DNA from: Streptomonospora mangrovi
Lineage (GTDB): Bacteria; Actinomycetota; Actinomycetes; Streptosporangiales; Streptosporangiaceae
Assembly: GCF_027604915.1 (NCBI RefSeq)
Contig: NZ_JAJAQC010000054.1
Span: forward strand, 1 to 48,161
Reading direction: 5' to 3'
DNA: 48,161 nucleotides
Below, one piece after another: positions 19,783 to 33,578 of this stretch. The notes under the pieces were generated by a model. The model was not told the DNA's origin, did no database searches, and saw only the letters and a program-made list of their open reading frames with translations. The number at the start of each line of letters is the position of its first letter. The stretch's first letter is position 1. Made by a program: the position numbers and the translations under genes.

Positions 19783-20721
19783 CTAGTCGCCGCCGCCGCC
19801 ACCGCCGCCGTCGGAACCGCCGCTGGAGCCGCCGTCAGAGCCGCTGGATCCGCCCGCGGACGGGCCGGCCGAAGGGGTGGGGTCGGTGGCGGGGGTGGCG
19901 ACGGGCTCGGCGGGGGTGTCGGTGCCGGTGCCGGTGGAGTGGCCGGCGGCCACCGGAGCCGAGCCGTCGCCGGAGGAGGAGTCGGCGTAGCGGCTGTTGA
20001 GCTTGACCGGCTGGGCCTTGCGGCGGCGCCGGGCGAAGATGTTGAGCAGTTCCACGAACAGCGAGAAGCCCATGGCGAAGTAGATGTAGCCCCGGGGCAC
20101 GTGGAAGTGCAGGCCCTCGGCGACCAGGGTGAACCCGATGAGCAGCAGGAACGACAGCGCCAGCATCTTGACGGTGGGGTGGGCGTTGACGAACCGGCTG
20201 AGCGGGCCGGCCGAGACCAGCATGACGATCACCGCGATGACCACGGCCGCGACCATGACCCAGATGCCGCCGGGCTCGTCGCCGATCATGCCGACGGCGG
20301 TGATGACGGAGTCCAGGGAGAAGACGAGGTCCAGCGCGACGATCTGGAGGAGCACGGCTCCGAACGCGGCGCGCACCTTGGACCCCTTGTGGTCCTCCTC
20401 GCCCTCGAGGCTCTCGTGGATCTCGTAGGTGGCCTTGGCGATGAGGAACAGGCCGCCCGCCAGCAGGATGAGCGACTGCCCGGTGAACTCGATCCCGGCG
20501 ATGGTGAACAGCGGCACGGTCAGCCGCATGATCAGGGTGATCGAGGCGAGCAGGACCAGCCGGCCCACCAGCGCCAGCGCGATGCCGATCTGGCGGGCGC
20601 GGGCGCGCTGGTGCTCGGGGAGCTTGCCCGCCAGGATCGAGATGAAGACGAGGTTGTCGATTCCGAGGACGATCTCCAACGCCGTCAGCGTGAAGAATCC
20701 GACGATCAGGTCTGTGCTCAT
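19783..20721 (-). CDS. TerC-family integral membrane protein
   Basis: A 312-aa membrane protein with about seven hydrophobic helices in the first 230 residues, then an 80-residue Ser/Gly/Pro tail ending in a glycine run. LEIVLGIDNLVFISI and LVFSLDSVITAVG are the two acidic metal-site motifs of the TerC family. Members export or buffer Mn2+ or protect against tellurite and alkaline stress. No Mn-sensing yybP-ykoY riboswitch was recognised upstream. Monocistronic, with its own terminator. Confidence 0.9.
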   Translation of the reverse strand: MSTDLIVGFFTLTALEIVLGIDNLVFISILAGKLPEHQRARARQIGIALALVGRLVLLASITLIMRLTVPLFTIAGIEFTGQSLILLAGGLFLIAKATYEIHESLEGEEDHKGSKVRAAFGAVLLQIVALDLVFSLDSVITAVGMIGDEPGGIWVMVAAVVIAVIVMLVSAGPLSRFVNAHPTVKMLALSFLLLIGFTLVAEGLHFHVPRGYIYFAMGFSLFVELLNIFARRRRKAQPVKLNSRYADSSSGDGSAPVAAGHSTGTGTDTPAEPVATPATDPTPSAGPSAGGSSGSDGGSSGGSDGGGGGGGD

Positions 20722-20873
20722 GGCGGGGCGTCAGCTCCGGGGTCAGGTGTCGGTCGAGGGGCTACCACTGGCCTAGGGAGTCTAGATCATCCGTATACGC
20801 GCCCAGGTAACATCGCGCGGCGCCCGCCTGGCCGGAACAGGACGCCCCGGTACCACCCGCCGGACCCGCCCCC

Positions 20874-20896
20874 CGCCCGCCGGCCCGGGGCGGGCG
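20874..20896 (-). terminator. GC-rich hairpin downstream of the ECF sigma gene
   Basis: CGCCCGCC (20874-20881) pairs with GGCGGGCG (20889-20896); further G/C complementarity extends the structure on both sides. It starts about 65 bases beyond the sigma factor stop. Confidence 0.5.
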
Positions 20897-20962
20897 GAGG
20901 GCGGGGGGCGGACCGCCCGGCGGGTTCCGCCTGAACGGGACCTTCTTCCGAGGGGCGGGGCC

Positions 20963-21868
20963 TCACCGCTCCAGGCCGGCGAGGTCCAGGCGGGCCAGCC
21001 GGTCGGGGTCGGAGAGGATGTCGATCTCGAGGATCCGCCCGTCCGCGACGGTGAAGCCCATGACCGAGATGAGCGTGCCGTCGATGGTGTTGACCAGTCC
21101 GGCGGCGCCGTTGACCAGTGCGGGGCGGGTGGTCGAGACGGTGGCCATGCGCTGGAAGGTGGCGAGCTGCCCGGCCACCGCCTGGGCACCGCGCAGGACC
21201 CGCATGCCGCCGGGGAGCGCCTTTCCGGTGTCGGCGCGCAGCGTGACGTCGGGGTCGAGGACGGCCAGCAGGGCGGTGAGGTCGCCGCCGCGCGCGGCGG
21301 CGAGGAAGGCGTCGACGACGCGACGCTGGGCGGCCGGGTCGGGGTCGGGGGTGGGGGCCGCGCCCTGGACGCGCCGGCGGGCGCGGCTGGCGAGTTTCCG
21401 GGCCGCGACCGGTGTGCGGTCCATGATCGGGGCGATCTGCTCGAACGGCATGCCGAACAGGTCGTGCAGGACGAAGGCCAGCCGTTCGGCCGGTTTCAGC
21501 GACTCCAGCACCACCAGCAGCGCCAGCCCCACCGAGTCGGCGAGCACGGCCTGGTGTGCGGGGTCGGCGCCGTCGTCGCTGACGACGGGGTCCGGCAGGC
21601 GCGCATCCAGCGGGTCCTCGCGGCGCGTCCGGCGCGAACGCAGCATGTCCAGGCAGACCCGGCCGACGACCGTGGTCAGCCAGCCGCCGAGGTTGTCGAT
21701 GTCAGCGGCGCGGTCGTCGCCCGTGGTGCGGGCGAGCCGCAGCCAGGACTCCTGGACGGCGTCCTCGGCGTCGGTCAGGGAGCCGAGCATCCGGTAGGCC
21801 ACCGCGGTGAGGTGCGTGCGGTGCTCCTCGAATCGCCGGGCGAGGAAGAGGAAGTCGTGTTCGTTCAT
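20963..21868 (-). CDS. ECF41-type RNA polymerase sigma factor with SnoaL-like C-terminal domain
   Basis: Sigma factor of 301 aa. Region 2 is AYRMLGSLTDAEDAVQESWL (about residues 24-45), region 4 is PAERLAFVLHDLFGMPFEQ followed by APIMDRTPVAARKLASRAR, and residues 185-300 form a SnoaL_2-like fold. The end VADGRILEIDILSDPDRLA matches the conserved (N)PDKL signature of ECF41 proteins, in which the fused domain controls activity in place of an anti-sigma factor. ATG at 21868 follows GGAGG. A GGTCACA-N16-CGTC element 32 bases upstream implies autoregulation. Genes of the usual ECF41 partner type lie divergently. Confidence 0.93.
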   Translation of the reverse strand: MNEHDFLFLARRFEEHRTHLTAVAYRMLGSLTDAEDAVQESWLRLARTTGDDRAADIDNLGGWLTTVVGRVCLDMLRSRRTRREDPLDARLPDPVVSDDGADPAHQAVLADSVGLALLVVLESLKPAERLAFVLHDLFGMPFEQIAPIMDRTPVAARKLASRARRRVQGAAPTPDPDPAAQRRVVDAFLAAARGGDLTALLAVLDPDVTLRADTGKALPGGMRVLRGAQAVAGQLATFQRMATVSTTRPALVNGAAGLVNTIDGTLISVMGFTVADGRILEIDILSDPDRLARLDLAGLER

Positions 21869-21899
21869 GGTCGTCCTCCGGGTTGGCGGTCGAGTCCAT

Positions 21900-21926
21900 G
21901 ACGGACACCGCGCCGGCGATGTGACC
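21900..21926 (-). promoter_or_regulatory. ECF41-type promoter for the sigma factor gene
   Basis: On the minus strand GGTCACA (21926-21920), 16 bases, CGTC (21903-21900). The published ECF41 consensus is TGTCACA-N16-CGTC, so only the first base differs. It is back to back with the divergent copy at 21937-21963; together the two -35 elements form the inverted repeat TGTGACC...GGTCACA. Confidence 0.85.
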
Positions 21927-21936
21927 GCCGGGGTCC

Positions 21937-21963
21937 GGTCACACTTTCGGCGGCCCGTGCGTC
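21937..21963 (+). promoter_or_regulatory. ECF41-type promoter for the hydrolase-MFS unit
   Basis: GGTCACA at 21937-21943, exactly 16 bases, CGTC at 21960-21963, about 46 bases before the serine hydrolase ATG. Same sequence and spacing as the elements at 21900-21926 and 24712-24738. Confidence 0.85.
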
Positions 21964-22009
21964 ATGCCTCCGTCGAATCGGTAACACGATGAACGGAGCA
22001 GCACCGACG

Positions 22010-23164
22010 ATGAGCGACATCGACGTCCACGGGACGGTCACCGGCGGTTTCGAGGCGGTGCGGGAGGAGTTCGCCGCCGTGATGGCCGGGGAGAGGGGCC
22101 CGGGCCAGGCCGGCGCGCAGTTGGCCGTCTACGTCCACGGCCGCCGGGTGGTCGACCTGTGGGCCGGAGACGAGGTGACGGGCGACACGCTGACCGGCGT
22201 CTACTCCGCCACCAAGGGCGCCGCGACCTTGGTGGCGGCGCTGCTGGTCCAGGACGGCGCCCTGGAGCTGGACCGGCCCGTCGCGCACTACTGGCCGGAG
22301 TTCGCCGCCAAGGGCAAGGACCGGATCACCGTGCGGGACGTCCTCACCCACCGGTCCGGGGTGATCGGCGTGGACGGCGGCCTCACCGCCGACGAACTGG
22401 CCGACGACCGGGTGATCGCGCGGCGGCTGGCCGGGCAGCGGCCGTACTGGCGTCCGGGCTCGGCCTACGGCTACGGCGGGTTCGTGACGTTCGCGGTCGT
22501 CAACGAGGTGGTCCAGCGGGCGACCGGCCGCCCGCTGCGGGAGCACTTCGAGGAGCGGGTGCGCGCACCCCACGGGCTGGACCTGTACCTGGGGCTGCCG
22601 GAGGCGCTGGAGGACCGGTTCCGGGAGGTGCTGCCAGGGCTGGCGTCCCCCGAGGAGCTGGCCGCGTTCTGGGCGAACGTTCCGGGACCGCACAGCATCA
22701 CCGGCATCGGCTACGGCCTCAACTCCACCCCGCCCCTGGACCAGGTGGCCTTCCTCAACACCCGGCGGGTGCGCGCGCTCGGCCAGTCCTCCGCCGGCGG
22801 CGTCGGCAGCGCCCGCGGGCTGGCCCGGATGTACGCGGCCGCGGTCTGGGGCGTGGACGGCGCCGCGCCGCTGCTCACCCCCGACACCCTCGGCGAGTTC
22901 GCCATGCTCCACTCCACCGGCGGCGACCTGGTCACCGGCGAGGCCGGCCAGTACGCCCTGGGGTTCCAGGCCAAGGGGCTGCGCTACCCCTTCCTGAGCG
23001 CGAACTCCTTCGGCCACAACGGGTCCGCCGGCGCGGAGTCGTTCGCCGACCCGCGCGGCGGCATCGCCTTCGGCTACACCCGCCGCCGCTTCTCCTTCGA
23101 CTGGTCCTACCCCGAACACGACCGGCTGGCCGCCGCGGTCCACCGCGCCGCCACCGGTGCCTGA
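22010..23164 (+). CDS. Serine hydrolase, beta-lactamase/EstB family
   Basis: A 384-aa penicillin-binding-fold esterase or peptidase without a signal peptide, so probably cytoplasmic. The catalytic S-x-x-K is SATK (S66/K69), the second motif is Y153-G-Y155 as in EstB-type esterases, and a late H-N-G motif (FGHNGSAGAESF) stands for the third. ATG at 22010 is chosen over ATG at 21989 because GGAG is spaced 11 bases before it and the earlier one has no ribosome binding site. It is the first gene after the sigma-dependent promoter and is followed within 11 bases by the MFS gene. Confidence 0.85.
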   Translation: MSDIDVHGTVTGGFEAVREEFAAVMAGERGPGQAGAQLAVYVHGRRVVDLWAGDEVTGDTLTGVYSATKGAATLVAALLVQDGALELDRPVAHYWPEFAAKGKDRITVRDVLTHRSGVIGVDGGLTADELADDRVIARRLAGQRPYWRPGSAYGYGGFVTFAVVNEVVQRATGRPLREHFEERVRAPHGLDLYLGLPEALEDRFREVLPGLASPEELAAFWANVPGPHSITGIGYGLNSTPPLDQVAFLNTRRVRALGQSSAGGVGSARGLARMYAAAVWGVDGAAPLLTPDTLGEFAMLHSTGGDLVTGEAGQYALGFQAKGLRYPFLSANSFGHNGSAGAESFADPRGGIAFGYTRRRFSFDWSYPEHDRLAAAVHRAATGA

Positions 23165-23175
23165 GGAGGCTCGAC

Positions 23176-24639
23176 ATGACTTCGCACCTGGATACCCCGT
23201 CCCGCACCCGGTCCGGCGGCCTGGCGCTGTGGGTGATGGCCGCGGCGCAACTGGTGATCGTGATGGACGGCACCATCGTGACCGTGGGCCTGCCCGCCAT
23301 CGGCGCGGGACTGCACATGGCCGAGTCCGATCTGGACTGGGTCCTGACCTCCTACGCGCTGGCGTTCGGCGGGCTGCTGCTGGCCGGCGGCCGGGCCGGT
23401 GACGTGTTCGGCCGCCGCAGGATGTTCCGGATCGGGCTGGTGGTGTTCCTGCTCGCCTCCCTGCTGGGCGGCGTGGCGCAGACCGGGGCCACGCTCATCG
23501 CCGCCCGGGTGGTGCAGGGCGTGGGCGGCGCGATCATCGCCCCGGCCGCGCTGTCCCTGCTCGCCGACACCTTCCCCGCCGGGCCGGCGCGCGACAAGGC
23601 GCTGGGTGTGTACGGCGCGATGGGCGGGCTGGGCGCCGTGGTCGGGCTGCTGCTCGGCGGCGCGCTCACCGAGTACCTCGGCTGGCGGTGGATCATGTTC
23701 GTCAACATCCCCTTCGCCCTGCTGCTGCTCGCCGGCACCCTCGCGGTGGTACCCGGCACCCGGCGGCGCGGCGGGATCGACCTGCCCGGCGCGATCACCG
23801 CGACCCTCGCGCTGGGCTCGCTGGTCTACGCCGTCAACCGGGCCGGCTCCCACGGCCTGGGCGACGGGTTCACCCTCGCCTTCGGCGCGGCCGGCGTCGT
23901 GCTGGCCGTCGTGTTCGTCGCCATCCAGCGCGGCGCCCGCACCCCGCTGGTCCCGGCCGGTGTGCTCGCCGACCGCACCCGGTTCGGCGCCAACCTGGTC
24001 ATGCTGCTCATGGGCGCGGGCCAACTGGCGACGTTCTACTTCCTCACCCTCTACATGCAGGCGGTCAAGGACTACCCGCCCATGGTGACCGGGCTGGCCT
24101 ACCTGCCGTTCGCGATCGGCATCGGCATCGGCTCCGGCGTGGTCGGCCCCCGCCTGCTCGCCCGCACCTCCATCCGGACCACGCTGACGGCCGGCCTGGT
24201 GGTGGCCGCCGCGGCGATGGTCTGGTTCAGCGTGCTGACCCCCGACCAGAACGCCCTGATCGCCTTGCTGCCGGCCCAACTGGTCGGGGGCGTCGGCCTG
24301 GGGATCGGCTTCGTCGCGGCGACGATCGGCGGCGTGCGGGGCGTGGCCGCGGCGGACTCCGGCATCGCCTCCGGGCTCGTCAACACCAGCCAGCAGATCG
24401 GCGGCGCGCTGGGGCTGGCGGTCCTGGCCGGTGTCGCCGCCGCCGCCACCGCCGGCCAGCCGACGGGGGCGCCCCTGCCAGACGCCCTGACCGCCGGCTA
24501 CACCACCGGGCTGCTCGGCGCGGGCGCGTTCTACCTGGCCGCCGTCTGCGCCGCCGTGCTCCTCGTCCGGCCGCGTTCGGGCCGGAGCGGGGCCGAGCCG
24601 TCACCGGCCCGCGGCGGGGCGCCCACCGCCGCCGCGTGA
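23176..24639 (+). CDS. MFS exporter, DHA2 (EmrB/QacA) 14-TM family
   Basis: A 487-aa proton-coupled multidrug exporter-like protein. Fourteen hydrophobic segments can be counted. VMDGTIVTVGLPAIGAGL is the DHA2 motif of helix 1, GGRAGDVFGRRRMF is the loop 2-3 motif A, and GAMGGLGAVVGLLLGG is the helix 5 antiporter motif C region. ATG at 23176 has GAGGAGG six bases upstream. Co-transcription with the upstream hydrolase is implied by the 11-base gap. The substrate is unknown. Confidence 0.92.
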   Translation: MTSHLDTPSRTRSGGLALWVMAAAQLVIVMDGTIVTVGLPAIGAGLHMAESDLDWVLTSYALAFGGLLLAGGRAGDVFGRRRMFRIGLVVFLLASLLGGVAQTGATLIAARVVQGVGGAIIAPAALSLLADTFPAGPARDKALGVYGAMGGLGAVVGLLLGGALTEYLGWRWIMFVNIPFALLLLAGTLAVVPGTRRRGGIDLPGAITATLALGSLVYAVNRAGSHGLGDGFTLAFGAAGVVLAVVFVAIQRGARTPLVPAGVLADRTRFGANLVMLLMGAGQLATFYFLTLYMQAVKDYPPMVTGLAYLPFAIGIGIGSGVVGPRLLARTSIRTTLTAGLVVAAAAMVWFSVLTPDQNALIALLPAQLVGGVGLGIGFVAATIGGVRGVAAADSGIASGLVNTSQQIGGALGLAVLAGVAAAATAGQPTGAPLPDALTAGYTTGLLGAGAFYLAAVCAAVLLVRPRSGRSGAEPSPARGGAPTAAA

Positions 24640-24711
24640 GCGGTTCGCGGGCGGTCCGGCGGGCGCGCCGGGCCGCCACCGCGCCCGCCGAAAAAATTCG
24701 TCGCGCTCACC

Positions 24712-24738
24712 GGTCACATCCGCCGCCCGCGACCCGTC
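24712..24738 (+). promoter_or_regulatory. ECF41-type promoter for the AhpD-like gene
   Basis: GGTCACA at 24712-24718, 16 bases, CGTC at 24735-24738, 40 bases before the ATG at 24778. It is the third copy of the element in this locus and gives the AhpD-like gene its own sigma-dependent start point. Confidence 0.85.
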
Positions 24739-24777
24739 AAGAAGATGACAGCCAAGAACGGGAAAGGAAAACCCACC

Positions 24778-25311
24778 ATGACCACCACTCCCGCCTCCAC
24801 CCCCGCTTCCGCCGCCGCGGAGACCGAGAGCACCGCCCTCCAGTCGCGTCTGCCCAACCCCGCCAAGCTCGTCCCCGAACTGGGGCAGATCGCCGGGGCC
24901 CTGTTCAAGGCCACCGGGAACGGCTCGATCCCGCAGACCACCATCGGCCTGGTCCAGTTGCGCGCCGGGCAGATCGCGGACAGCACCTACCTGACCGTCC
25001 TGCACACCGGCAACCTCCGCAGGGCCGGGGAGGCGGAGGAGCGCATCTCCGCCGTGGCGTCCTGGCGGGACGCGCCCCACTTCACCGAGGCCGAGCGGGT
25101 CGCGCTCGAACTCGTGGAGGCCGTGCTGACCGCCAACCCCCACGGCGAGCGGGTCCCCGACGAGCTGTACGCCCGGGCGGCCGCGCACTACGACGAGACG
25201 GCGCTGACCACCCTCATCATGGCGATCGGCCAGGTGTGCTTCTTCCTCCCCCTCGCCCTCATCGGCAAGCCGCTGCCCGGGGTGTCGCCCGCGGAGCAGT
25301 GGCGGGACTAG
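24778..25311 (+). CDS. AhpD/carboxymuconolactone decarboxylase-like protein lacking CxxC
   Basis: A 177-aa all-helical protein of the AhpD-like superfamily, the usual partner of ECF41 sigma factors. The family core is clear: QLRAGQIADSTYLTVLHTG then GEAEERISAVASWRDAPHFTE. Where active members have C-x-x-C (QINGCAYCVDMHT type), this one has S69-T-Y-L72, so both redox cysteines are gone while the following histidine (H76) is kept. ATG at 24778 has AAAGGAAA upstream and lies about 40 bases past the promoter; an ATG at 24745 would sit on the expected transcription start. The first 25 residues are Thr/Ala/Pro-rich. A peroxidase role is unlikely; a binding or non-redox role is inference. Confidence 0.88.
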   Translation: MTTTPASTPASAAAETESTALQSRLPNPAKLVPELGQIAGALFKATGNGSIPQTTIGLVQLRAGQIADSTYLTVLHTGNLRRAGEAEERISAVASWRDAPHFTEAERVALELVEAVLTANPHGERVPDELYARAAAHYDETALTTLIMAIGQVCFFLPLALIGKPLPGVSPAEQWRD

Positions 25312-25325
25312 CACCGGCGGGCTCA

Positions 25326-25356
25326 GGGGTGCGGAACGGTGACCGTTCCGCACCCC
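25326..25356. terminator. Bidirectional terminator
   Basis: GGGGTGCGGAACGGT pairs over 15 bp with ACCGTTCCGCACCCC around a single base, followed on the plus strand by the T-rich TCTTTCCGTTTT. It separates the convergent AhpD-like and DUF885 genes. Confidence 0.85.
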
Positions 25357-25399
25357 TCTTTCCGTTTTCCGGTCGGCGGCCGGCGCGGCCCCGCTCCCC

Positions 25400-27103
25400 T
25401 CAGCCCAGGCCGAGCAGGGTGCGGAGGTGGCGCGGTGAGGGCGAGCCGTGGGCCAGCACGGTGTCGTGGATCTCGCGGCGCGACGCCTGGGGGCGGGCGG
25501 TGCGCAGGTCGCGCACGATCTGGGAGACCTCCTGGTAGCCGACGTAGTAGGTGGCCAGTTGGGCGCTGGTGAGCTGGGCGCGGCGCCACTTGCCCGCGGC
25601 CTCGCCCTCCTCCTGGTGGCCGCGCTCGGTGAGCAGGGCCATGGCCTCGGCCTCGGTCATGCCGTGGGCGTGCACCCGCACGTCGAGGATGGCGTTGATG
25701 ATCATCCGCAGCCGGGTCTTGAGCTGCATGAGCCGCAGCCGCCGGTTGAGCGCCGGGTCCTCCGACCAGCCCAGTTCGGCCATGGCCTCCTCGGCGTAGA
25801 CGGCCCACCCCTCCACGAAGGTGCCGCTGAGCAGGGCGCGGCGCAGCCGGGTGCCGCCGGTGTAGGCGGCGGCGTGGGCGAGTTGCAGCGCATGGCCGGG
25901 CACGCCCTCGTGGATCATGAGTTCGCGCAGCATGTCGGCGTTGTACTCGCGGTAGAACGACGCGCGGCGCTCGGCGGGCCAGTCGTCGGGCGGCGGGGCC
26001 ACCGCGATGAGGGTGGGCCGGTCGGGGGTGGGCGAGAGCGGGCCGGGCGGGTCGCAGTAGGCCACGGCCATGCCGCGCCGGGACTCGGGCATGGGGATGA
26101 CCCGCACGGGGTGGTCGGGCACCGTGGCGAAGTCCAGTTCGCGGGTGCGGGCGTAGAGGTGCGCCAGGATCTCCTCGCAGCCGGGGCGGATGGTGTGCTC
26201 GTCTGTGGCGCTCTCGGCGGCGATGCGGTCGAGGACCTCGCGGACCTGGCCGGGGCGGGCGGGCGCGCCGGCGAACTCGGCGGCGGCCTCGGCCATGGCC
26301 TCCTCGGTGGCCAGCAGGTCGCTTTCGGCGCGGGTGAGCAGGGCGTCCTGGCTCAGTTCGGAGTCGAGGGTGTACCAGAGCCGGGCGGCGTGGTCGCGGG
26401 CGCCCAGGCGGGGGTCGGCGTTGGCGGCCTCGGCGCGCGCGGCCAGCCACGCGGCGTGCTCCTCCAGCGCCGCGGCGGCGGCCCGCCGGGCGGGGTCGAC
26501 GTCGCCGCGCGCGCCGGGTGCCTGCTCCAGGAGGGCGTCGACGGGGCCGCCGAGGAGGCCGGCGACGCCGCGCGCCTGGGCGGCGGCGGTCTGCACGTGG
26601 ACCTTGGGCATGCCGGGGCCCTCGTCGAGGCGGGCGCGCGCGGTGGCCAGGAAGTCGGGGACGGCGCGGCAGCGGGCGGCCAGCGCGGTCAGCCGCTCCT
26701 CGGCGGGCAGGTCCTCGCCGGCGACGAGGCTGTAGAGGGCGTCGCCGGGGAGCTGGTCGAGGGGGTCCCAGGTCTGCGGGCGCAGCTCGGTGAGCTGCCA
26801 CAGGTCAGCCGACAGGCGGTTGCGCAGCATCTCCAGGTCGACCCGGTCGGCGGCCGGCAGCAGCAGGTCGTCGATCTGGTCGAGGGCGCCCAGCGCGTCG
26901 GTGATCACGCCGGCGCGGCGGGCGTCGCCCTCGGCGGAGTGGTCGCTGAGGCGGTCGGCGTAGCGGTGGTCCCCGAGGTCATCGGCCCATTCCGGCGACT
27001 CGGCGAGCAGCGCGTCGAGGATGCGCTCGCCGACCTCGTGGAAGCGGTCGGTCATGGCGTTGGCGCCGGGGTCGGGCTGGCCGTGGGCAGGATGTGAAGT
27101 CAT
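25400..27103 (-). CDS. DUF885 family protein, putative zinc metallopeptidase
   Basis: A 567-aa protein without a signal peptide. The DUF885 zinc motif is IHEGVPGHALQLAH near residue 395 (H-E-x-x-x-G-H), with a downstream glutamate in FVEGWAVYAEEAM. These features are shared by DUF885 proteins, which resemble carboxypeptidase Taq/M32-like enzymes. ATG at 27103 follows GGCAGGCG; a downstream ATG at 27055 lacks a ribosome binding site. It is divergent from the cyclase gene. Confidence 0.88.
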   Translation of the reverse strand: MTSHPAHGQPDPGANAMTDRFHEVGERILDALLAESPEWADDLGDHRYADRLSDHSAEGDARRAGVITDALGALDQIDDLLLPAADRVDLEMLRNRLSADLWQLTELRPQTWDPLDQLPGDALYSLVAGEDLPAEERLTALAARCRAVPDFLATARARLDEGPGMPKVHVQTAAAQARGVAGLLGGPVDALLEQAPGARGDVDPARRAAAAALEEHAAWLAARAEAANADPRLGARDHAARLWYTLDSELSQDALLTRAESDLLATEEAMAEAAAEFAGAPARPGQVREVLDRIAAESATDEHTIRPGCEEILAHLYARTRELDFATVPDHPVRVIPMPESRRGMAVAYCDPPGPLSPTPDRPTLIAVAPPPDDWPAERRASFYREYNADMLRELMIHEGVPGHALQLAHAAAYTGGTRLRRALLSGTFVEGWAVYAEEAMAELGWSEDPALNRRLRLMQLKTRLRMIINAILDVRVHAHGMTEAEAMALLTERGHQEEGEAAGKWRRAQLTSAQLATYYVGYQEVSQIVRDLRTARPQASRREIHDTVLAHGSPSPRHLRTLLGLG

Positions 27104-28003: not shown

Positions 28004-28651
28004 TCAGCGCCAGGAGCCCTGGCCGCCGGTGGAGGTGGGCTGCTGGCCGGCGCCGCCGGTGTCGCCCACGTTGATGGCGTGCTCCACCAGGGTGATCAGC
28101 GTGGCCTTGGTCGAGGTGCGGTCGCGCGCGTCGACCTGCACGATGGGGATGTCGGGGCTGAGGGTGAGCGCGTCGCGGACCTCCTCGGCGGCGTGGGGGT
28201 AGTAGCCGTCGAACCCGTTGATGCCCACGATGAACGGCAGCCGCGCCTCTTCGAAGTAGTCGATGGCGGGGAAGCAGTCGGCCAGGCGGCGGGTGTCGAC
28301 CAGCACCACGGCGCCGATCGCGCCCTTGACCAGGTCGTCCCACATGAACCAGAAGCGGTGCTGGCCGGGGGTGCCGAACAGGTAGAGGATGAGGTCGGAG
28401 TCCAGCGAGACGCGGCCGAAGTCCATGGCCACGGTGGTGGTCTGCTTGTCCGGCGTCTTGGCGAGGTCGTCCACGCCCACGCTGGCGCTGGTCATGACCG
28501 CTTCGGTGGTCAGCGGCACGATCTCGGAGACGGAGCCGACGAATGTCGTCTTGCCGACACCGAAGCCTCCGGCGACGACGATCTTGACCGACGTCATCGC
28601 ACTCGCCGCAGCAGCGCCCTCGTCGGCCGCGCTAGAGCTTGCGAAGTCCAC
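28004..28651 (-). CDS. cvnD: Conservon GTPase CvnD
   Basis: Small Ras/MglA-like GTPase of 215 aa, last gene of the conservon. The P-loop is AGGFGVGKTTFVG, the G3-like motif is LFGTPGQHRFWFMW and the G4-like motif is NGFDG in place of the usual NKxD. Conservon GTPases assemble with the kinase-like CvnA and the roadblock protein CvnB at the membrane, resembling eukaryotic G-protein coupled signalling. GTG at 28651 overlaps the end of cvnC by 20 bases, as is usual in conservons. Confidence 0.93.
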   Translation of the reverse strand: MDFASSSAADEGAAAASAMTSVKIVVAGGFGVGKTTFVGSVSEIVPLTTEAVMTSASVGVDDLAKTPDKQTTTVAMDFGRVSLDSDLILYLFGTPGQHRFWFMWDDLVKGAIGAVVLVDTRRLADCFPAIDYFEEARLPFIVGINGFDGYYPHAAEEVRDALTLSPDIPIVQVDARDRTSTKATLITLVEHAINVGDTGGAGQQPTSTGGQGSWR

Positions 28652-29108
28652 TGAGCACCCTTTCAAGAAGGTTGGCGTTGGGCCGGCTGTCGGCGTTGAT
28701 CGACGACCTGATCTGGAGCAGTCCCTGTTCGGACATGTCGGCGACCAGCACCCTGGCGACTCCCAGCGGGATCCGCAGCAGGGCCGAGATCTCGGCGACG
28801 GAGCGCCATTCGCGGCACAGGTCGCTGATGGCCTGGCACTCGGGGGTGAGGGTCCCCGACTCGTTGCGCGCGGTGGCCGTGGAGGAGATAAGGGTCTCCA
28901 GCGGCAACTGCGACTTGGGTCGGGTGCGGCCCTTGGTGACAGCGTAGGGGCGGACGAGGGAGCTGGGTGCTCCGGCCGCCGCCTGGTCGGCGTGTTGATG
29001 GGGGGATCGTGGAAGGTCCGCGCCGCCCGGCCCGGCCGCGAGCGGCCTGGAGGAGCCGGGGGGAAGCTGCCCGAACCACGACCCGGCGTCTCGGCTGTGA
29101 GGTGCCAC
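28632..29108 (-). CDS. cvnC: Conservon DUF742 protein CvnC
   Basis: A 158-aa protein with the DUF742 region in its C-terminal two thirds: SLVRPYAVTKGRTRP, LTPECQAISDLC, SVAEISALLRIPLGVARVL and the final LLERVLSGLRKL. The predicted winged-helix character suggests protein or nucleic acid contact, but the role is not defined. The start is the second of two adjacent GTG codons (29108), five bases after GGAGG. The first ~65 residues are low-complexity, rich in Ser, Pro, Gly and Ala. Confidence 0.88.
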   Translation of the reverse strand: MAPHSRDAGSWFGQLPPGSSRPLAAGPGGADLPRSPHQHADQAAAGAPSSLVRPYAVTKGRTRPKSQLPLETLISSTATARNESGTLTPECQAISDLCREWRSVAEISALLRIPLGVARVLVADMSEQGLLQIRSSINADSRPNANLLERVLSGLRKL

Positions 29109-29131
29109 CACTTCCTCCTGTCGGTGGTGGG

Positions 29132-29533
29132 TCAGTGGATTCCCGAGGTGCGCGCCGCCGGGGTCAGCGCGCGACCGGCCCGTTCGACGAGCAGGGTCAT
29201 CTCGTAGGCGACCAGGCCGAGGTCGCACTCGGCGGCCGCCAGTACGGCAAGGCAGGAGCCGTCGCTGATCGACATGATCAGCAGGAGCCCGCGCTCCATC
29301 TCGACCACGGTCTGGGCGACGGCGCCGCCCTCGAAGACGCGCGCGGCGCCCTGGGTGAGGCTGGAGAGGCCCGAGGCGATGGCCGCGAGCTGGTCGGCCC
29401 GGTCGGCGGGGAAGCCGGTCGAGGAGGCGAGGGGCAGGCCGTCCGACGACACCACGATCGCGTGTGCGACGTCCGGCACTCGATTCGCGAAGTCAGTGAT
29501 CAGCCAGTTCAGCTCATTCACCGGTTGATTCAT
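29132..29533 (-). CDS. cvnB: Conservon roadblock/LC7 protein CvnB
   Basis: A 133-aa roadblock/LC7 domain protein. ELNWLITDFANRVPDVAHA and VVSSDGLPLASS are typical of the actinobacterial conservon type, followed by LAAIASGLSSLTQGAARV. These proteins bind the Ras-like CvnD GTPase and modulate its state. The ATG at 29533 follows AGGAGAG. A 235-base gap separates it from cvnA, unusually wide for a conservon. Confidence 0.92.
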   Translation of the reverse strand: MNQPVNELNWLITDFANRVPDVAHAIVVSSDGLPLASSTGFPADRADQLAAIASGLSSLTQGAARVFEGGAVAQTVVEMERGLLLIMSISDGSCLAVLAAAECDLGLVAYEMTLLVERAGRALTPAARTSGIH

Positions 29534-29768
29534 CTGCTCTCCTGTCCATACCGGCCGGGGGAGTGACCGTGGCCCGCGGGCCGGCCGTCGGCCGAGTGGG
29601 CTCCTGTAGTGACCTTATTCGAGTGGTTGGTGTCGATCATCACGGTATGCACAAATGGTTCGGTAGATCCTAATCCGTGGCGTTTCCGTGATCCATGCGG
29701 ACCCGGATGACACGGCCCGCGGGTCGGGGCGCGTCGAGTCGGGGTCCGCTCGGCCGTACTCGCGCGGT
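29534..29768. promoter_or_regulatory. cvnA-cvnB gap, possible internal promoter
   Basis: A 235-base stretch with locally AT-rich sequence (29600-29690) between cvnA and cvnB. On the minus strand it contains ATTAGGAT and TTGTGCATACCG, possible promoter elements, without a clear spaced pair. The gap suggests cvnBCD can be expressed apart from cvnA. Confidence 0.35.
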
Positions 29769-32700
29769 TCACTTGTCGTCCTCGCCCGGCTGGCCGCCGA
29801 GCTGGCTGCGTCCCTCGCGGACTCCGCGCTGGAATCCGGAGAAGCGGTTGCGGACCCGGTCGGCCGAGCGCGTGGGGATCTGCTTGACGTGCTCGGGCGC
29901 GGGAGCGGTTCCGGGAACCAGGTTCGCCTTGGGAACGCGCTTTGGCAACCCCGAGGAGGTCAGTCCGCCGGCGATGGGCTCGGCCGCCGAGCGGGCGGCC
30001 TGCCACCCGCGGTCGGCGTCGGAGCGCCACTCGTCCTCGGGCGGGCGCTGGGCGGCGCCGTTGCGGGAGGCGTGGCCGTTGGCGCCGGCCGCACCGCCGG
30101 TGCCGCCTGCCGCCCCGCCGGGGGCCGGCGCGGCGGGCGCCGGCCCGTAGCGCCCGGCGTCGGCGGCCGGGGCCTCGCGGCGGGCGCCGTCGGCGGAGCC
30201 GTTGTCGGGCGAGAAGCGCGGCAGCGGGCCGGTCTCGGGCTCGGAGGCCGGTCCCCCGCTGCGGCGGCGGAACCAGTTGGACTCGATGGCGTCGAAGATC
30301 GGCAGCGCCTCGGAGCTGCTCTCCTCGGGCGAGGGCGGCACCACGGTGTTCTGCCCGGCGCCCGTGCCCCCGTAGCGGCGCGAGATGTAGGCGGTGGAGC
30401 CGTAGCCCTCGCGGGTGTCGTGGTCGGCGCTCCACTCGGGCCGGGGCGGCTGCGGGGCGCGCTGGGGCGGGGCGGCCCAGACGCTGTCGCTGGGCAGGGC
30501 CGGCGCGGAGTCGCCCTGCCAGGGGCGGCGCTCCTCGGCGTAGGGCTGGGCGGGCGGCTGGGCCGGGGGTGGGGCCTGCCGGTCGTGGGGGCGCGGCGCC
30601 TCGGGCTCGGGGCGGCGGGGCTCGCCGCTCCAGCCGGGGGTGTCCCACGGCGAGGGGCCGCGCGGCGGCTCGGGCGCGGGGCGCTCGGGCGCGGGGCGCT
30701 CGGGCAGCGGGGGCCGCTCGGTGGCGGGCGGCTCGGCGCGCGGGGCCTCACTCCGGCGCGGCTCGGCCGGCGGCAGCGGGCGGGCGGGCGGGCCGGCGGG
30801 CGGGTTGGCCCAGCCGGTCGACCCGGTGGCCCACAGGTCCTCGCCGCTGGGCGGGTGCTCGGCGGGGGCGGCGCTGCCGGAGACGGCGGGCCGGTTGTAG
30901 CCGGGTTCGCGCTTGGGCAGGTCGGAGCCGGCCGGGGAGCGGCCGTAGTCGTCGGCGCTCCCCCACACCCCGGGTTCGGGCGGCGCGGGGTTGGCGGCGA
31001 AGGCGGCGGCGGCCTCGGCGTAGGTGTCGGGCGCCGAGGGGCCCAGCGCGGGCGGTTCGACGGGGGCCTGCGGCTCCACCGGCGTGATGAGCAGGTCGGG
31101 CGGCAGGACGGCCGTGGCGGTGACGCCGCCGTTGTGGGCCTCGGACAGCCACACCCGGATGCCGTGGCGGGCGGCCAGGCGGCTGACCACGAACAGGCCC
31201 ATGCGGCGGGAGACGCCGACGTCGATGACGGGCGGCTCGGCCAGGCGGGCGTTGGTGGCGGCGATCTCGTCGGGCGGCATGCCGATGCCGCTGTCGGTGA
31301 CCTCCACCCGCACGCCGCCGTCCTCCAGGACCTGGGCGTTGACCGCCACCTGGGTGTCCTTAGAGGAGAACGCGGTGGCGTTCTCGACCAGCTCGGCCAC
31401 CAGGTGGATGACGTCGTTGACGGGGCGGCCCAGGACCGAGATGTGGGAGGGGGCGCGCACGTTGACGCGCTCGTACTCGTCGACCTCGGAGATGGCGCCG
31501 CGCAGCACGTCCACCAGCGGGACGGGCTGGGCCCACTTGCGGGTGTTGTCCTGCCCCGACAGGACCAGGAGGTTCTCGTTGTTGCGCCGCATGCGGGTGG
31601 CGAGGTGGTCGAGCTGGAAGAGGTCGGACAGCCGGTCGGAGTCCTGCTCGCCCTGCTCCAGGCCGTCGATGAGGCGCAACTGCCGCTCCACCAGGGTCTG
31701 GCTGCGGCGGGAGAGGTTGACGAACATCGCGTTGACGTTGCTGCGCAGCGCGGCCTCGTCGGAGGCCAGGCGCAGCGCCACGCGGTGGACCTCGTCGAAG
31801 GACCGGGCGACCTCGCCGATCTCGTCGCGGGAGGTGACCTCGATGGGGGTGACCTCGACGTCGCCCGGCGCGGAGCTGGACTCCTGCATCCGGGCGATGG
31901 CGCCGGGCAGGTCCTCCTCGGCGATGCGCAGGGCGCCCTCGCGCAGCGCGCGCAGCGGGCGGACCAGCGAGCGGACCACGATGGAGGTCAGCACGAAGAC
32001 GGCGATGAGGACGGCCAGCACCAGCGCGGTGTCCAGCAGCGCCAGGTTGAACGCGCCCGAGCGCAGCCCGTCGGCCTGGGTGCGCACCGAGGAGGCCAGG
32101 GTGCTCTCCAGGTCGTGCATGCGGTCCAGGGTGCCGTCCAGGGCGTCCTGGTAGTCCTGCGGCGTGGAGTCCTGCATCACGCTGGTGATGTCCTGGCTGT
32201 CGCGGGCCCGCATCACCGCCCGCAGCCGCATGGTGTCGACCTGGCTGACCTCGGCGCCGGCGTACATCTCCTCGTACAACTGGGCCTGCTGGGTGGTGGC
32301 GCTGTCGCGGAAGTTCTCGCGCTCGTGCTCGAAGCCGGCGCGGCTGTCCTCGATCTCGGAGCGGATGCCGTTGGACATCGTGCCGGTGCTCAGCGAGTGC
32401 AGCATGAGGGCGCCCTCGTAGGACAGCTCCTCGCGGGCGTTGGCCAGGGCGGTGAGGGCGCGGACGCTCTCGCGCAGCTCGGTGTCGCTGGTGGCCTCGG
32501 CGATGATCTGGGTGAAGTCGGCGAGGGAGCCGATGACCTGCCGGTACTTGGTCACCATGGACAGCACCGAGGTGCGGGTGGACTGCACCTCGGTGCGCAC
32601 GGTGTCGAGGTTGCCCAGGCTGCCCTGGAGCCCCTGGAGCCGGTTGGCGGCGAGCTGGGTGCCGGGGTCGCCCAGGCCGTCGATGAGGTTGCGGACCTCC

Positions 32701-33101
32701 TGCTCGGCCTGGCGGCTCTCCTGGATCTGCTCCTGGAGGGCGTCGAGCTTCTGCTGGGAGCGCTCGTCGGGGTCGACGTTGTCGGCGATGTAGGCCGCGG
32801 AGTACACCCGCTCGCGGCCCAGTTCGTCGCCGAGGTGGACCATCGACTCGGTGAGGGCCGCCATCTGCTCGATGCGGTCGTGGGTGACGGTGTTGACGAT
32901 GCTCTCGGAGATCCGCAGCCCGCCCAGGACGAGCGCCGCCGCGGTCGGGATGACGATCAGAGCGATCAGTCGGGGGCGCACCCGCCATTCGCGCGGCGCC
33001 CACCAGCGCGCACGGGGCTCGGCGGCCGTGACGGCGCTGTCGGCCTCATGAGGCGCGCCCCGGGAGGCGCCGCCTGCGTCATCTGTCGCTCGTGTCGGCA
33101 C
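29769..33101 (-). CDS. cvnA: Conservon sensor kinase-like protein CvnA
   Basis: Large membrane sensor of 1110 aa. A basic N-terminus leads to TM1 (about 43-62), an extracytoplasmic NIT-type helical sensor (about 65-345), TM2 (LALLDTALVLAVLIAVFVLT), a HAMP-like linker, then a histidine-kinase-type ATPase with the N box ELVENATAFS and G boxes DSGIGMPPDEI and RRMGLFVVSRLA. The C-terminal ~430 residues are Pro/Glu/Arg-rich and disordered. The GTG start at 33101 follows GAGGG; an upstream TTG is possible. Conservon CvnA proteins work with CvnB-D rather than a classic response regulator, and none is adjacent. Confidence 0.92.
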   Translation of the reverse strand: MPTRATDDAGGASRGAPHEADSAVTAAEPRARWWAPREWRVRPRLIALIVIPTAAALVLGGLRISESIVNTVTHDRIEQMAALTESMVHLGDELGRERVYSAAYIADNVDPDERSQQKLDALQEQIQESRQAEQEVRNLIDGLGDPGTQLAANRLQGLQGSLGNLDTVRTEVQSTRTSVLSMVTKYRQVIGSLADFTQIIAEATSDTELRESVRALTALANAREELSYEGALMLHSLSTGTMSNGIRSEIEDSRAGFEHERENFRDSATTQQAQLYEEMYAGAEVSQVDTMRLRAVMRARDSQDITSVMQDSTPQDYQDALDGTLDRMHDLESTLASSVRTQADGLRSGAFNLALLDTALVLAVLIAVFVLTSIVVRSLVRPLRALREGALRIAEEDLPGAIARMQESSSAPGDVEVTPIEVTSRDEIGEVARSFDEVHRVALRLASDEAALRSNVNAMFVNLSRRSQTLVERQLRLIDGLEQGEQDSDRLSDLFQLDHLATRMRRNNENLLVLSGQDNTRKWAQPVPLVDVLRGAISEVDEYERVNVRAPSHISVLGRPVNDVIHLVAELVENATAFSSKDTQVAVNAQVLEDGGVRVEVTDSGIGMPPDEIAATNARLAEPPVIDVGVSRRMGLFVVSRLAARHGIRVWLSEAHNGGVTATAVLPPDLLITPVEPQAPVEPPALGPSAPDTYAEAAAAFAANPAPPEPGVWGSADDYGRSPAGSDLPKREPGYNRPAVSGSAAPAEHPPSGEDLWATGSTGWANPPAGPPARPLPPAEPRRSEAPRAEPPATERPPLPERPAPERPAPEPPRGPSPWDTPGWSGEPRRPEPEAPRPHDRQAPPPAQPPAQPYAEERRPWQGDSAPALPSDSVWAAPPQRAPQPPRPEWSADHDTREGYGSTAYISRRYGGTGAGQNTVVPPSPEESSSEALPIFDAIESNWFRRRSGGPASEPETGPLPRFSPDNGSADGARREAPAADAGRYGPAPAAPAPGGAAGGTGGAAGANGHASRNGAAQRPPEDEWRSDADRGWQAARSAAEPIAGGLTSSGLPKRVPKANLVPGTAPAPEHVKQIPTRSADRVRNRFSGFQRGVREGRSQLGGQPGEDDK

Positions 33102-33578
33102 GGACCCTCGCAACCTTTCGTGTCCACCGCCTCAGCTACCGGATGTTGGTCCCCATGAGGTGGTACCGGATCCGAAAGAGACCGTACGGGACCCTCGGTG
33201 ATAGGCGCCAGAGCGGGCCTGCCGTGTTCGGCCGCCGGCGCGGAAAAGGTGGGGTTCCGCGCTGGACGCTGCCTCAGGGGGAGTGAAGAGGCGTTGTGCA
33301 CCATAAACCAAAAATGGTGCACGTGAGGTGGATAGCGTATCAATCCGCGCAGACGCCTCGCGGCTGGCGATCGTCCCCGTCGTCCGGCGCCGTGGGTGCG
33401 GCAGGGCTCGGCAGGAGGCGCCCGCGCCCTCGGCGAGCCCGCGACCACGGCGCCTGCGCCCCCTACCCCGCCACCCGCATCACATTCATAACTTTTGGAA
33501 CACGCCGGGAGGCTTCGGTGAAGACCCCTGTTCAGCGTGTCACCGTTGCAGGTGAGACGCATGTTGGGGGGAGCGCCC
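33102..33578. promoter_or_regulatory. Divergent region cvnA-M15 peptidase (477 bp)
   Basis: No gene seen. It should hold the divergent promoters of the conservon and the M15-type peptidase. Two AT-richer islands lie at 33294-33350 and 33478-33510. The first contains the inverted repeat listed separately. A c-di-AMP riboswitch, sometimes present before actinomycete cell-wall hydrolases, was looked for and not recognised. Confidence 0.4.
33296..33322. promoter_or_regulatory. Inverted repeat GTGCACCAT-N9-ATGGTGCAC
   Basis: Two perfectly complementary 9-base arms (33296-33304, 33314-33322) around an A-rich spacer (AAACCAAAA). It lies 195 bases before cvnA and 257 before the M15 gene. The A-rich loop and symmetry suggest a dimeric regulator site; an RNA hairpin is an alternative. 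Confidence 0.55.

Follow-up and report, generated by a model that had tools for sequence, protein, structure and literature searches.

How many genes can an ECF41-type sigma factor control from its own locus, and how are the promoters arranged that would let it do so? The question is raised by positions 20,963 to 25,311 of contig NZ_JAJAQC010000054.1 of Streptomonospora mangrovi (the window, as used here, is the whole analysed stretch of 48,161 nucleotides). In this region a sigma factor gene, a divergent hydrolase-exporter unit and a gene for a protein of the AhpD fold are each preceded by one copy of the element GGTCACA-N16-CGTC. An earlier interpretation made from the letters alone, called here the sequence-only reading, had proposed an enlarged ECF41 regulon that takes in the hydrolase-exporter unit and the AhpD-like gene, and this proposal is well supported by our comparison with relatives. 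The three units very probably form a local, self-activating regulon, in which the sigma gene, the hydrolase-exporter operon and an AhpD-fold gene devoid of its usual cysteines would be driven by three copies of one promoter.

The element was found three times in the window, always with a 16-base spacer, as the sequence-only reading had it. The three copies had also been called identical, which holds for the -35 element, the spacer length, the -10 element and the A next to it, but not for the spacer sequences, which differ. For the -10 element CGTCA is the better notation, the A being present in 81% and 84% across the promoter pairs. GGTCACA-N16-CGTCA gave three matches in the window and none in 100 dinucleotide shuffles, and the looser pattern GTCACA-N15-17-CGTC gave three where 0.41 were expected, a number that 1 of the 100 shuffles reached. 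The promoters match TGTCACA-N16-CGTC of ECF41 at all positions except the first, and the divergent pair forms a perfect inverted repeat, TGTGACC-N10-GGTCACA. A search of 20700-25500 for sigma70-like promoters returned none, which has little weight since 0.1 were expected by chance.

The assignment of the sigma factor to the ECF41 type stood up to profile, alignment and structural comparisons. The protein scored 281 bits against the NCBIfam SigJ subfamily (cut-off 271), its residues 11-292 aligned to Mycobacterium tuberculosis SigJ (5xe7) with an E value of 9.4e-49, and the ECF core of the SigJ subfamily, with sigma2 and sigma4, was present. Pfam SnoaL_2 gave 21.7 bits, under its cut-off of 27; the C-terminal part is nevertheless predicted with high confidence to adopt an NTF2/SnoaL-like fold. 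SigJ was the top match both by sequence and by fold, including the best match of the model in the PDB, with 34% identity in the fold alignment and a different linker, a segment that was predicted poorly in the model. The whole-chain TM score was low (0.34-0.37) because the domains are placed differently. The same domain architecture is seen in Streptomyces tsukubaensis SigG1 (ECF56, 7qh5).

The conservation of the promoters was studied in 65 loci from a search of genome contigs and in further loci from relatives of the genome. Between -350 and +30 of the sigma start, 101 loci contained 152 motifs with at most one core mismatch, against 12 in the reversed sequence; this count took in loci of the own genome and three duplicate pairs, which were later dropped. 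Gene content was taken from tblastn, because a simple caller of open reading frames (ORFs) overlooked the exporter at several loci, among them the one in the window. Actinokineospora fastidiosa (L055) has the genes in the same order, with the exact promoter in front of each of the three units. In L058, L065, L072 and L124 the genes were retained with promoters of the form GGTCACC or GGTCACG, the exporter of L065 being a fragment only, and the hydrolase match was fragmentary in L057 and L067. The motif preceded 13 of the 14 AhpD-like orthologs (at least 71% identity, window included), with a spacer of 15 in L068. One promoter for each of the three units, as first proposed, is supported by the relatives.

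Table 1. Features of the regulon and its surroundings, in positions of the window.
Feature	Position	Strand	Remarks
ECF41/SigJ-type sigma factor with C-terminal SnoaL-like domain	20963..21868	-	301 residues
Sigma gene promoter	21900..21926	-	GGTCACA 21926-21920, CGTC 21903-21900; same place in relatives
Gap between divergent -35 elements	21927..21936	.	10 base pairs (bp); 9-12 bp in 13/15 hydrolase-bearing back-to-back loci
Hydrolase-exporter promoter	21937..21963	+	GGTCACA 21937-21943, CGTC 21960-21963
Serine hydrolase, beta-lactamase/esterase superfamily	22010..23164	+	Pfam Beta-lactamase 171 bits
DHA2-like MFS exporter	23176..24639	+	Pfam MFS_1 159 bits
AhpD-like gene promoter	24712..24738	+	Motif with at most one mismatch in 13/14 orthologs, window included
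AhpD-fold (CMD family) protein without CxxC cysteines	24778..25311	+	Pfam CMD 44 bits
Terminator-like hairpin with T-rich tail (weak by number)	25325..25357	+	1 in 20700-25500 against 0.6 in shuffles

The AhpD-like protein, whose start is probably the one in Table 1 (a Shine-Dalgarno-like stretch precedes it), keeps the fold of its family, with a Foldseek E value of about 2e-7 and TM scores by target of 0.82-0.86 for the top three matches. The fold is common to PA0269 (2ijc, 2o4d) and Atu0492 (2gmy), but in the protein of the window both cysteines are replaced and there is an extra conserved C-terminal segment. All 14 close orthologs lack both CxxC cysteines and have [NS]-[TA]-[YW]-L at that place, while CxxC is intact in 20 of the 22 more distant CMD neighbours (in L066 the motif is not covered), the exceptions being L064 and L093, the latter with one cysteine left. 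Since both cysteines are gone in the clade, the protein is probably no peroxidase. The sequence-only reading had suggested a detoxification or export module, and the case for detoxification through an AhpD activity is weakened by this loss. AhpD-like selenoproteins exist. The CMD-family gene of L064 (match from +1421, minus strand) has an in-frame TGA at the first CxxC cysteine and a tyrosine at the second, and may encode selenocysteine or be broken.

The hydrolase and the exporter apparently form an operon: 11 bases with an intervening GGAGG separate the hydrolase stop from the exporter. A second hydrolase start is open at the ATG at 21989, and that of Table 1 is the probable one because in most alignments with orthologs the match starts at residue 6-8 of the longer form. 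All NCBIfam matches of the hydrolase were under their cut-offs, and EmrB gave 205.7 bits for the exporter, under 230.2.

Several observations weigh against a regulon of three units read by its own sigma factor, and they have to be set beside the explanations that they could favor. The YVGPWLPEP linker and the NPDKL motif, both ECF41 motifs (PMC7730460), are degenerate in the window sigma, aligning to RLPDPV and DPDRL. In the hydrolase-bearing orthologs L064, L078 and L093 the scan found no full promoter pair. L120 (G021) has three exact promoters, but behind the third, at -2737 from the sigma start, no AhpD-like gene was found; this site may be orphaned or drive something else, and is perhaps the remnant of a deletion. 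The same locus lends itself to the explanation that control extends no further than the sigma gene and the hydrolase operon, transcription of the AhpD-like gene being due to read-through and its own promoter being vestigial. Exporter and AhpD-like gene are indeed on the same strand with 138 bases between them, where a hairpin was weak (z -2.19; 6 of 200 shuffles were equally good). The retention of the promoter in nearly all orthologs makes this explanation unlikely, even if in four of them (L056, L068, L076 and L122) the motif is a member of the divergent pair.

The next observation is that the closest paralog in the genome, on contig C120 and 64% identical, has the same promoter as the window, and several ECF41-type paralogs are present; a paralogous sigma could then be the main reader, with the local one as one of several inputs. 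The genome-wide motif search proposed in the sequence-only reading was carried out with the loose pattern and gave 14 matches in 6.36 Mb, against 4 for the backwards pattern. The spacing was N16 in seven of the 14: three in the window, one divergent and adjoining the paralog gene on C120, one on C103 at the 5′ end of a paralog and within the longest reading of its sigma ORF, and two inside other ORFs. Motif sites cluster at sigma loci, and the promoters of one locus tend to carry the same -35 variant: of 68 promoter pairs, 59 shared the seventh -35 base (permutation mean 41.5) and 61 the first -10 base (mean 51.9), as would be expected if one local sigma reads both. Shared ancestry inflates this agreement, and the C variants at the seventh base belong mostly to one clade. 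Taking both sides into account, we consider control mainly by a paralog improbable; by motif the regulon is local, with cross-talk possible.

Other sites at ECF41-type sigma genes were also noted. The C120 locus (L148) has a face-to-face pair with a gap of 8, in which GGTCCCA is directed toward sigma and GGTCACA faces a gene with a FAD-binding domain. Upstream of the paralogs on C43, C77 and C25 the scan found no recognisable promoter pair; C25 has a single divergent GGTCACC-N16-CGTC. In L065 and L072 the window-type sigma gene is preceded, at a distance of 3.3-4.8 kb, by a second ECF41-type sigma gene (51-52%); the latter has TGTCACA promoters and a CMD gene of its own that retains CxxC, so that two ECF41 systems adjoin each other.

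The G at the first -35 position, which the sequence-only reading had pointed out, is present in all three promoters, but it is not a strict mark of the system, as only 10 of 36 face-to-face pairs agree at this base. A strict specificity switch, with G for the window clade and T for the others, was discarded on this count. A clade-level tendency remains, because 29 of 32 back-to-back pairs, and 39 of 68 pairs overall (permutation mean 25.6), do agree.

The comparison of loci revealed two ways of arranging the divergent promoters. In the window clade they are back to back, and the physical link between them that the sequence-only reading had described is found in relatives as well. The spacing in Table 1 is given for the 15 hydrolase-bearing loci only, because gaps pooled over all back-to-back loci are loose; its exceptions are L074 (1 bp) and L126 (110 bp). 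Many other branches, and the C120 paralog, have face-to-face promoters. The distance from -10 to -10 in 37 such pairs was 8 in 25, 9 in four, 10 in one, 11 in five, 12 in one and 17 in one, the last probably by chance, and AT made up 60% of the gap but 34% of the N16 spacers. Among the gap-8 loci, nine are closely related members of the Terrabacter group; the others include Aminobacter and Shinella (Alphaproteobacteria) and Aeromicrobium. In 35 of 36 face-to-face loci the target-side -35 element has a purine-rich, Shine-Dalgarno-like stretch just 5′ of it and a start codon at most 10 bases 3′. A divergent ORF was present at 32 of 36 by a mechanical rule, which is an upper figure because several of these ORFs resemble frames antisense to the sigma gene; a scan of four of the ORFs assigned them to FAD-binding domain or NAD(P)-binding/epimerase families.

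These layouts also bear on whether TGTGACC-N10-GGTCACA might be the operator of a dimeric regulator and CGTC incidental. A perfect inverted repeat between divergent genes is what such an operator would look like. Yet no inverted partner accompanies the third copy, the half-site gap goes from 1 to 110 bp in hydrolase-bearing loci and varies more elsewhere while N16-CGTC is kept, and many relatives have the sites in the opposite, face-to-face orientation; the operator was discarded for these reasons and we regard it as very improbable. Chance matches in GC-rich DNA, which the presence of the loose pattern inside unrelated ORFs might suggest, are dismissed as practically negligible by the absence of the full motif from the shuffles and its conservation in relatives.

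The two layouts could also be followed across the phylum and on a tree. In 396 genomes of the phylum, the face-to-face pattern with a gap of 0-30 was found in eight, of which four belong to a single family; the gaps were 8-11 in every case, and the backwards pattern was found in none. The back-to-back pattern was found in six, including the window, with 10-26 bases from TGTGAC to GTCACA (12 in the window). An ECF41-type sigma gene was present at 13 of these 14 loci, the remaining one being too short to tell. Of 112 loci, 105 entered a first sigma tree (seven short or partial ones were left out) and 98 a second one, for which twelve names, long branches among them, were listed for removal; both are quick trees with many weak forks. 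In the window clade, back-to-back promoters go together with a hydrolase-exporter module that is located between the sigma gene and the COE-type target; in many other branches the promoters are face to face and such a hydrolase is missing. Where neighbours are known, none of 28 face-to-face loci had the hydrolase, but 15 of 26 back-to-back loci did. The 98-row tree required at least 4 layout changes and 11 hydrolase changes; 19 of its rows with known neighbours had neither layout by scan, a hydrolase not being required there, and the sigma-side motif was absent by scan in 16 rows.

Considering the mapped ECF41 promoters (PMC3426412, PMC6180224), we estimated that transcription would start 6-9 bases past CGTC. 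With this offset the leaders would have 23-26 nucleotides for sigma, 38-41 for the hydrolase and 31-34 for the AhpD-like gene, and the two divergent starts of the window would be 75-81 bp apart. Its -35 elements are adjacent and its -10 elements far apart, and the start regions do not overlap. The geometry of the face-to-face pairs of relatives and of C120, by contrast, would fit overlapping start regions: for gap-8 pairs the starts would lie 3-9 bp apart with diverging RNAs, and one polymerase should therefore exclude another. Such a pair is apparently a single start region common to the sigma gene and its target. In bidirectional sigma70 promoters a second polymerase would likewise be excluded, but those have one shared -10 element and starts most often 18 bp apart (PMC12825309, PMC10268837), whereas the ECF41 pairs have two -10 elements, mostly 8-11 bp apart; the back-to-back pair of the window is not of this kind.

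Taken together, the mechanism that we propose would begin with the SnoaL-like domain of the sigma factor itself, which would set the activity without an anti-sigma factor and, as published work on this group suggests, is probably switched by a small ligand. The switched sigma would direct RNA polymerase to the three promoter copies, that is, to its own gene, to the hydrolase-exporter operon in the opposite direction and to the cysteine-less AhpD-fold gene, and the hydrolase, the exporter and the AhpD-like protein would act jointly on one compound. The promoter and gene anatomy, the spacing, the conservation, the cysteine loss and the two layouts were observed directly; recognition by the sigma, autoactivation, ligand control and joint action are proposed on these grounds. 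A broader picture, which we offer tentatively and would not quite call probable, is that many ECF41 systems have a symmetric promoter, GTCACA-N16-CGTC-N8(to 11)-GACG-N16-TGTGAC, in which both sigma and target would be started from an AT-rich centre so that polymerase must choose, with the target-side -35 element between the ribosome-binding site of the sigma gene and its start codon. The window clade would have its promoters back to back instead, freeing both directions, together with a recruited hydrolase-exporter operon and a target lacking redox cysteines.

Much of the frame is already known: ECF41 itself, the TGTCACA-N16-CGTC promoter, CMD targets and divergent loci in which each of the two genes is preceded by the motif (Wecke 2012, PMC3426412), with about 400 proteins in 10 phyla in 2012. 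The window has, as in those loci, a CMD-family (COE-type) gene near sigma with its own promoter. It shares with the ECF41 systems of Bacillus licheniformis and Rhodobacter sphaeroides (PMC3426412) and with Sinorhizobium meliloti RpoE9 (PMC6180224) the C-terminal extension, the promoter, the CMD-family target and divergent arrangements. In those systems a single target, a CMD gene or operon, was identified; the window adds the hydrolase-exporter unit and a degenerate linker motif, and its AhpD-like target lacks the CxxC of the S. meliloti CMD protein (PMC6180224). The single COE target is a finding in two species, B. licheniformis and R. sphaeroides (PMC3426412), and not a defining feature of an ECF41 sigma; by motif it would not apply here, the hydrolase-exporter unit being included. 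The claim that the regulon goes beyond the usual single COE gene thus stands by comparison with that work, but it is less special than it seemed: the legend of its Figure 2 mentions other genes with the motif, and an ECF41 factor of Azospirillum controls motility and lateral flagella, by the title of the cited work. A hydrolase-exporter target is unnamed in passages on ECF41 from the open-access papers PMC3426412, PMC7730460, PMC8999054, PMC6180224, PMC9205884 and PMC3616915. Searches confined to open-access literature gave no report of the face-to-face layout, an absence that is weak evidence; in the main text of PMC3426412, 'bidirectional', 'hydrolase' and 'lactamase' are absent as word starts.

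Further along the window, at 28004-33113 on the minus strand, lies a putative conservon-type cluster, with sensor-like, roadblock-like, DUF742-like and GTPase-like ORFs.

We know of no established signal for ECF41 factors. A regulon of three units with chemically suggestive genes would give more clues to the ligand than a CMD gene on its own. The two layouts, for their part, would make it possible to test directly whether a self-activating sigma factor strikes the balance between making itself and making its target through mutual exclusion at a shared start region or through separate promoters.

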